From Albula goreensis (Eukaryota > Chordata > Actinopteri > Albuliformes > Albulidae): a stretch of 64,000 bases of DNA. The position numbers were made by a program, and so were the translations under genes. The notes beneath the pieces are model-generated. The model saw only the letters and a list, made by a program, of their open reading frames with translations. It did not search any database and had not been told where the DNA came from. Positions 37,401 to 40,400 of this stretch are shown piece after piece; within the stretch, counting starts at the first letter, position 1; the number at the start of each line of letters is the position of its first letter. Location of the stretch: assembly GCA_022829145.1 (NCBI GenBank), contig CM040763.1, positions 12,509,141 to 12,573,140 on the forward strand, read 5' to 3'.

Positions 37401-40400
37401 GCAAGGTGGCCATCAAGACCATCAATGAGGGATCGATGTCAGAGGAGGACTTCATCGAAGAGGCCAAAGTCATGACGTAAGGCATAGAATTCCAGCCATG
37501 AAATGCAGTTTCCACAGAACGCAAGAGAAATGGCAGTGACAGAAGTAGGCCGGATATTGTCATGAGATTTTTTTCTATCGCTATGTCTCTTTGACTTCCT
37601 CCTGTCAATTCTTTAATGTCCCACACAAAAGCCACAGAGCTGTTTCCATCACATTTTCCATTTCCACTTTGTGAAATTTACCATACAGACAGAAAGATAA
37701 AAAAGTGAACTAAATATTAATAATCTGATTGGATAAAATAGTTGTGTATGTTTTATTGGGTCAAATGAAGGCCTCTTTGAGTATAGTTGAGTTTATTGTT
37801 GAGGTTGGCTTTGCAAATGTGAGAAGACAGTTCACAGTGAGAAGGCAATATTTGGGGGGAGACAGACCCACTCTGCTCTTGCGCTATATAGCCACTTCCT
37901 GAGTTGTGGTCTTCTGCTTTTCCACTGAACCCTACCCACCCATCTTAAAATAAAAGCATATATAACTCAAAAATTGTTTCACCTACTCTTACACATTTAA
38001 TGTAAACACTTTATAGCAGTACAGAAAGTGTTTATACATTAGCATAGATGTTTAATTGCACCTGAGAATCTGAGAATTTTCTCTAGTTGAAATCAAACCC
38101 GGGGAAGTGAATGGCTCTTTGTCAAGTACTAGAAGAATAAAAATGTCATGGGCCACCTGATCATTGCTATGTGTTTCATAGCTTGCTTAACGGGATTTTC
38201 ATCATTGCTTACGCAAAAGGATGTGCAGCTTTTGTCATATGATGCTGAACAGTGCAGTGCCATCTTGTTAGCGTGTCTGAAATGGCTTGTTGTCCTGCTT
38301 CAGGAAGCTGTGCCACCCGAAACTGGTGCAGCTGTATGGGATATGTATGAAGCAGAGGCCCATCTGCATCGTCACTGAGTTCATGGAAAATGGCTGCCTT
38401 CTCAACTTCCTGCGGCAGCGTAACAACATGCTGAGCAAGGAGTGGCTGCTGGCCATGTGCCAGGATGCCTGTGAGGGAATGGAGTACCTGGAGCAGAGCA
38501 GCTTCATACACAGAGACCTGGTAGGCACCTGATCAAATGGCCTCTAATACAAAGACCTGGTAGGCACCTGATCAAATGGCCTCTAATACAGAGACCTGGT
38601 AGGTACCTGATCAAACAGCTTCTAATACAGGGACCTGGTAGGATCCTGATCACACAACTTCACAAAAAATGACCTGGTAGGCATTTGAGTAGCCTCATAC
38701 ACAGTGACCTGGTAGGCATTTGAGTAGCCTCATACACAGTGACCTGGTAGGCATTTGAGTAGCCTCATACACAGTGACCTGGTAGGCATTTGAGTAGCCT
38801 CATACACAGTGATCTGGTAGGCATTTGAGTAGCCTCATACACAGTGATCTGGTAGGCATTTGAGTAGCCTCATACACAGTGATCTGGTAGGCATTTGAGT
38901 AGCCTCATACACAGTGATCTGGTAGGCATTTGAGTAGCCTCATACACAGTGATCTGGTAGGCATTTGAGTAGCCTCATACACAGTGATCTGGTAGGCATT
39001 TGAGTAGCCTCATACACAGTGATCTGGTAGGCATTTGAGTAGCCTCATACACAGTGACCTGGTAGGCATTTGAGTAGCCTCATACACAGTGATCTGGTAG
39101 GCATTTGAGTAGCCTCATACACAGTGATCTGGTAGGCATTTGAGTAGCCTCATACACAGTGATCTGGTAGGCATTTGAGTAGCCTCATACACAGTGATCT
39201 GGTAGGCATTTGAGTAGCCTCATACACAGTGACCTGGTAGGCATTTGAGTAGCCTCATACACAGTGATCTGGTAGGCATTTGAGTAGCCTCATACACAGT
39301 GATCTGGTAGGCATTTGAGAGCCTCTACACAGTGATCTGGTAGGCATTTGAGTAGCCTCATACACAGTGATCTGGTAGGCATTTGAGTAGCCTCATACAC
39401 AGTGATCTGGTAGGCATTTGAGTAGCCTCATACACAGTGATCTGGTAGGCATTTGAGTAGCCTCATACACAGTGATCTGGTAGGCATTTGAGTAGCCTCA
39501 TACACAGTGATCTGGTAGGCATTTGAGTAGCCTCATACACAGTGATCTGGTAGGCATTTGAGTAGCCTCATACACAGTGATCTGGTAGGGAACTGATCAA
39601 AAGCTTCACACACAGGTACCTGGTAGGCACTCAAGGAAAAGCTTGTTCCATACTCTGTGGTAGGCCCAAAGAGTTCAAGCAGGTCATGGAGAAAACATCC
39701 CCTTTGTATGGGATTGCATTATAAGTGTCCGATTTTAATTCTTTAATGTCTCCCTTACCTTTTCTCTCTCCTTTACAGGCTGCCAGGAACTGTTTAGTCA
39801 ATGAAAAGAATGTCGTCAAAGTGTGTGACTTTGGAATGACCAGGTGGGTACAAAAGAGTAGAGCGATATTACTGTAATGCTACTCTTCTCTGTGTCACAG
39901 GGTTTAAAGGTAATGAAATGGAATCTAAATTGACAATTAAGGATGACACAGGCCTGTGTTGATTTCTGTTTAGGTACGTGCTTGACAATCAGTACACTAG
40001 CTCTACAGGATCCAAGTTCCCGGTCAAGTGGTCTCCCCCAGAAGTGCTGCATTTTAACAAATACAGCAGCAAATCTGACGTGTGGTCGTTTGGTAAGTCA
40101 GTCTCAGAAAGGGGCTGAGAGGATATGAAAGGGTCTATGAATGTTTACCACAGGACCAAATCTATGGGTTCTGAAATAGGAGGAGATGGTGAGCAAGTTC
40201 ATCCTCATTAGCCTTGGCCATGATGACACCTACAGACACACTCTTCCTTCCCTAACTGAATGTATGTTCCCTTATTGCCTGCTACATACCTGTTCCATAG
40301 AAAAAGCAGTACAAATGCCTTTATCATGTGTGGTGTTACATGAAGGTAACCTCACACCGTATGTAATTTAAGAGGCTTGTGCATGTATTATCAGATCTTA

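Follow-up and report, generated by a model that had tools for sequence, protein, structure and literature searches.

In the genome of Albula goreensis, the intron behind the HRDL-encoding exon of a txk-like immune-kinase gene begins with a tandem array that directly adjoins the coding exon and includes its splice donor. We read the array as a minisatellite derived from this donor, and we consider it likely that it is largely neutral, any cost to productive txk splicing being small and dependent on array length. The window, that is the whole stretch of DNA analysed, has a length of 64,000 nucleotides, and coordinates given without a contig refer to it.

The forward strand of the window carries a TEC-family gene with the domain order SH3-SH2-kinase. 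Open frames joined by hand served as the protein query against PDB, and the best chains were those of BTK for SH3-SH2-kinase and of BTK or ITK for the kinase domain. The SH2 domain matched human TXK best among the solved structures (2dm0, E=1.1e-35), with BTK a close second (1.8e-35). No PH-like ORF was obvious by eye among the open reading frames of the forward strand of the window. Judged by these matches the gene is likely txk, and the name is kept here without proof. It lies head to head with a tec-like gene on the reverse strand (about 20-28 kb), and the pair falls within 20000-41000 of the window. Farther along, an open frame on the reverse strand (48805-49161) encodes a long coiled coil, EEVKRLSESRANMEQQLASANSTVA..., which presumably resembles a golgin-type tether, and a CA-rich repeat field of irregular make-up, in which several periods overlap, lies at 56553-57102.

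The txk-like exon in front of the array (38304..38520, forward strand), recognised by translation and splice signals, is 217 nt long, ends in phase 0 with ...FIHRDL and matches Pfam PF07714 over 38305-38520 (E=2.6e-25). Its true 5' splice donor, CTG/GTAGGC, is at 38521..38522 on the forward strand, at the same phase-0 position as in 4 other best-matching kinase genes. The next exon (39779..39843, forward strand, by translation and splice signals) encodes AARNCLVN..., and its length of 65 nt means that skipping it would shift the frame; further txk coding exons are present downstream of it. Of the 1258 nt of intron between the two exons, the tandem array makes up 1141 nt and other sequence 117 nt. 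This array-free remainder (39662..39778, forward strand) holds a pyrimidine-rich stretch and the acceptor.

Tandem Repeats Finder reported two repeats here, one at 38510-38652 with period 39 and 3.7 copies and one at 38670-39589 with period 35, 26.3 copies and 98% matches. The motif TGGTAGG occurs at 33 sites in the txk array, the true donor being the first, and at none elsewhere on the forward strand of the window; every array unit keeps its GTAGG site. The first intron bases of the 33 donor sites run from 38521 to 39660, and the spacings are, in order, 39 (four times), 35 (25 times), 33 (once), 38 and 37. Copies 2-5 are four degenerate 39-bp units (38518..38673, forward strand), which match the exon tail at 15-17 of 21 positions and the intron part at 11-18 of 18. 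They are followed by a homogenised block (38674..39581, forward strand) that consists, by the unit map and Tandem Repeats Finder, of 25 units of 35 bp and one of 33 bp. The 35-bp units differ from each other at one C/T site only: 20 have the end GAT and five the end GAC, which is the exon-like form and is found in the first three of them and in two inside the block. Degenerate units of 38 and 37 bp make up the 3' flank (39582..39656, forward strand), and the first of these carries the 39-bp-type sequence CTGATCAAA, which places 39-bp-type sequence on both sides of the uniform block. The figure of 26 copies given in the earlier note is right for the 35-bp block and too low for the whole array, which has 32 extra donor-like copies.

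The unit is a copy of the exon-intron boundary. The exon tail that seeds the repeat is agcttcatacacagagacctg (38500..38520, forward strand), with FIHRDL encoded at its end. In the 32 downstream copies, these 21 bases are matched at 17 or more positions in 27 and at 15-16 positions in three; the remaining two reach 12/21, where small deletions shift the copy, and 6/21 in the last copy. Most units match at 18-19 of 21. Elsewhere in the window, with both strands counted, a single 21-mer matches the exon tail at 17/21, and in a scan with the tail shifted by one base, the best match outside the array lies at the corresponding end of the exon in the adjacent tec-like gene. That the unit spans the end of the exon and the start of the intron, as proposed earlier from the same DNA, is thus confirmed by the tail recopied at 17/21 or better in 27 of 32 copies. 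The further proposal, a boundary duplication first in 39-bp units and then as a homogenised 35-bp array, is well supported by the unit map and by the flanking 39-bp-type units.

Uniform 35-bp units are, as is generally known, a classic site of copy-number error, so copies might be absent or miscounted in the assembly. We think this very unlikely: contiguity is good, with 932 Mb assembled in 208 contigs (C23, which holds the window, has 25.9 Mb), and the array is only about 1.1 kb long, carries its variants in non-periodic order and is flanked by degenerate units.

A protein search of the genome with the txk exon found 25 places, and the best five, including txk itself and the tec-like gene, were compared; for the three genes on other contigs, the match is the sole ground for the TEC-family label. 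Each of the five has an intron after HRDL at exactly the same phase-0 position. In the four other kinase genes this intron is 187, 338, 151 and 289 nt long, and within 1500 nt past the exon in those four genes, tail copies were no better than 14/21. The equivalent intron of the tec-like gene (187 nt; 20371..20557, reverse strand), taken as the control, is array-free. By this sequence comparison the txk array is derived, not ancestral. The intron itself is old and was only enlarged, since its position is shared with the four other compared genes, and for the same reason intron gain by tandem genomic duplication is rejected as an account of it. The resemblance between the last exon bases and the copies could also be read in the reverse direction, with an intronic repeat that was already present and captured the exon end by conversion. 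This is hardly credible, because the exon tail encodes IHRDL, which all four compared kinase genes share, and is therefore ancestral, and because a 112-bp piece of the txk array, searched against the genome with repeat counts as lower bounds, matched this locus only.

The sequence CTG/GTAGG is kept in 32 of the 33 txk sites and GTAGGC in 30 of 33, the exceptions to the latter being copy 3 (GTAGGT), copy 4 (GTAGGA) and copy 31 (GTAGGG). The earlier reading of all copies as potential 5' splice sites with the same gtaggc can be kept for the donor core, as far as the letters tell, and has to be given up for the identical gtaggc. All donor scores and U1 energies reported here rest on a donor weight matrix and a U1 5' end entered by hand. 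With this matrix, the true donor scores 2.79, like most copies; 31 of the 32 later copies lie at most 0.34 below it, and the last copy scores 1.75. The best-scoring donor of the array is the GTAGGT of copy 3 (38599..38600, forward strand), 78 nt downstream of the true donor, with 4.06 against 2.79 and a U1 duplex of -10.2 against -7.7 kcal/mol. By the same values, each unit has a donor-like GT with U1 complementarity. As the true donor stands level with most copies and below copy 3, the score alone does not reveal the donor that is used.

Past the true donor, the frame reads HRDL, VGT and stop, so that on intron retention an in-frame TGA (38531..38533, forward strand, by translation) is met after three codons. 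Use of any later copy would therefore truncate the kinase in the catalytic loop, between HRDL and AARN. Both the stop and the place of the truncation had been predicted before, and the translation bears them out; the functional suggestions of the earlier note are plausible.

We propose that the array began with the tandem duplication of a segment of about 39 bp, in which the last ~21 coding bases were joined to some 18 bases of the intron start; the sequence shows that exon and units share this boundary. A shortened 35-bp variant would later have expanded and become homogenised in the middle of the array, and a recent 35-bp expansion inside an older 39-bp array fits the unit map. The duplication may have been tolerated since the upstream-most junction leaves the exon intact and the extra copies would all be intronic. 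Splicing of the normal transcript most likely proceeds from the first donor, since the 217-nt exon would be recognised as a unit that starts at its acceptor. A low level of use is probable for the early copies, especially copy 3, and nonsense-mediated decay would then dispose of the transcripts that leave from later copies. Two points count against this model: the true donor has no advantage in score, and when donors are duplicated, the one nearest the acceptor is by the classical rule favoured, which makes the true txk donor the worst placed one. Human ABCA7 also has an array at an exon's donor, and there the copy reported as used adjoins the exon, which would support exon definition as the selector of the txk donor. 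The effect of ABCA7 array length on the next exon means in turn that strict neutrality of the txk array may be wrong.

We regard it as possible, if unlikely, that the array is a length-sensitive regulator, in which many decoys that bind U1, together with recurring UAG motifs, reduce productive splicing or cause the 65-nt exon to be skipped, so that array length would tune kinase output. The repeats of TERT intron 6 are said to control splicing by RNA pairing, and TAG is found 5.0 times per 100 nt in the txk array against 1.2 in other intronic-looking stretches. For TAGG the densities are 2.8 and 0.21 per 100 nt; both skews are such as any repeated unit would produce. A 281-nt RNA from the array (38700-38980) folds no better than its shuffles (z -0.22), which speaks against such a regulator. 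The ABCA7 VNTR is divided on the point: according to PMC5954066, exon 19, the one that follows, is skipped more as the VNTR gets longer, and retention of its units is independent of length. We keep to the mostly neutral donor-derived minisatellite as the preferred reading.

Arrays of similar anatomy exist elsewhere in the same genome. Among the matches listed for CAGGTGAGT triples, which cover C1 and C2 up to 48.9 Mb, there are 16 distinct, unselected arrays, and upstream frames of at least 25 codons that end at the first intact motif were present in 12 of the 16 (22 frames). Four of these arrays start at the end of a recognisable exon: a PLAT-domain exon (L032, G000:C1:533596; Pfam E 0.0028, under the curated cut-off), a harmonin exon (L041, C1:2778903; PDB match 1.3e-4), a GHMP kinase C-terminal exon (L058, C1:6160534, reverse strand; Pfam 3.1e-5) and a teneurin-like EGF exon (L068, C2:47645687, reverse strand; Pfam 1.7e-17). 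Names for the PLAT gene and for paralogues beyond these matches are to be taken as our assumption. All nine downstream frames of the CAGGTGAGT arrays were without a Pfam match. In L060, L062, L066 and L069, degenerate copies start 43-109 nt before the first intact motif, and two more frames at the true array starts of this group had no Pfam match either. At least 4 of the 16 listed CAGGTGAGT arrays thus start at recognisable coding exon ends, a lower bound in which small or unfamiliar exons are missed.

A further case on C22 (L043) is a 32-bp array with 21 intact CAG/GTGAGT donors including the first (G000:C22, L043:2575-3513). It begins where a probable exon ends, with some 21 bases of that exon recopied, and by its acceptor, open frame and recopied tail it is probably an exon-end array; searches for homology of this exon gave no PDB match, one Pfam match under the cut-off and no second place in the genome. 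As in txk, the exon tail lies inside the unit in L032, L041, L058 and L043, while L068 repeats little of the exon beyond the last CAG and is in this respect ABCA7-like. These other arrays carry the strong donor CAG/GTGAGT, different from the CTG/GTAGGC of txk.

Such cases raise the question whether minisatellites in this genome arise preferentially at splice donors, with txk as one product. Across the whole genome, CAGGTGAGT triples give 722 matches against 80 for the reversed pattern, and this ninefold ratio exceeds the 2.46-fold ratio of single CAGGTGAGT sites (14961 against 6086); the 4 of 16 listed arrays at exon ends, as a lower bound, point the same way. The match counts, however, weigh long arrays many times, and about 59% of single CAGGTGAGT sites exceed the control and may be real donors, so that random seeding would be expected to yield at least 4 of 16. 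For CAGGTAAGT, the other consensus donor, triples are in little excess (68 against 49 in the control, from 18 arrays), and a convincing coding flank was found in none of the 17 readable arrays, the 5' flank of the eighteenth reading N. The 26 upstream frames of this set comprise 21 that were sent to Pfam and 5 from the N flank; the 21 gave only matches with E of 0.037 or more, under the curated cut-offs. One CAGGTAAGT array, L082, has a candidate short exon in its flank. Triples of CTGGTAGG are not enriched, with 75 matches, of which 30 are txk itself, against 102 for the reversed control; they lie at 15 other loci, of which L043 was looked at, its complement reading a consensus donor, and no fraction is derivable from them. 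These controls do not clearly indicate any preference for splice donors as seeds of arrays, and we judge a hot spot of this kind quite improbable. Neutral birth of minisatellites wherever they are harmless is the simplest account, and a boundary is harmless if the outermost donor is kept; the ninefold ratio of CAGGTGAGT triples counts against this account.

It is a doubtful, more far-reaching reading that exon-end minisatellites are a recurrent form of intron growth in fish, which supplies dozens of near-equal donors and acts as a length-dependent brake on productive splicing. If it were true, txk would be a natural test of outermost choice among near-identical 5' splice sites. Should the first of the 33 near-identical donors be used faithfully, the locus would be a natural experiment in which motif strength is nearly constant and position varies. 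The locus shows how an intron can become several times longer and leave the exon unharmed, since a duplicated junction that lies farther downstream can remain silent. At such loci, annotation and short-read splice calling may err.

Among the literature matches listed, with preprints and most subscription papers outside their scope, there was neither a report of the txk array nor a survey of exon-end minisatellites in fish, and this silence is weak evidence of absence. The kind of array is already known from ABCA7 and IFI6, and txk is an instructive further example; with these published cases and the arrays of like anatomy in the same genome, the uniqueness implied in the earlier note was overstated. 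What remains of interest is the geometry, with 32 additional donors that are nearly identical and would each be fatal to the protein if used, and the presence of several such arrays in one genome.

IFI6 (6-16, G1P3) resembles txk as a minisatellite with multiple splice donor sites, and was reportedly described as such by Turri et al. in 1995. Two downstream repeat units of the human gene serve as donors, according to PMC4526556. The IFI6 isoforms encode protein, whereas the frame of later txk copies ends at once. In the fish Sparus aurata, intron 1 of myostatin-2 has a polymorphic 150-bp repeat at its 5' end, in one or two copies (PMC3045353, available part), and is like txk in this position; the same part of the paper was found to hold no statement of a donor inside the repeat.

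The closest parallel is the VNTR in intron 18 of human ABCA7, with a 25-bp unit and 23.7 copies in the reference, whose first two bases are the donor of exon 18; it varies between ~12 and ~427 units and has a link to disease (PMC5954066). As in txk, the array starts at the donor of a coding exon and holds a donor in its units. The ABCA7 unit begins at the GT, whereas the txk unit, of 35-39 bp, includes about 21 coding bases. Retention of one unit, by use of the second copy, is reported in the same paper for 2 +/- 1% of ABCA7 transcripts, and transcripts with a premature stop increase with cycloheximide; the product of copy 2 is out of frame and prone to decay, and decay is likewise predicted for transcripts from the later txk copies. 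Together with the other exon-end arrays, txk suggests that the disease-linked ABCA7 VNTR belongs to a general, recurring class.
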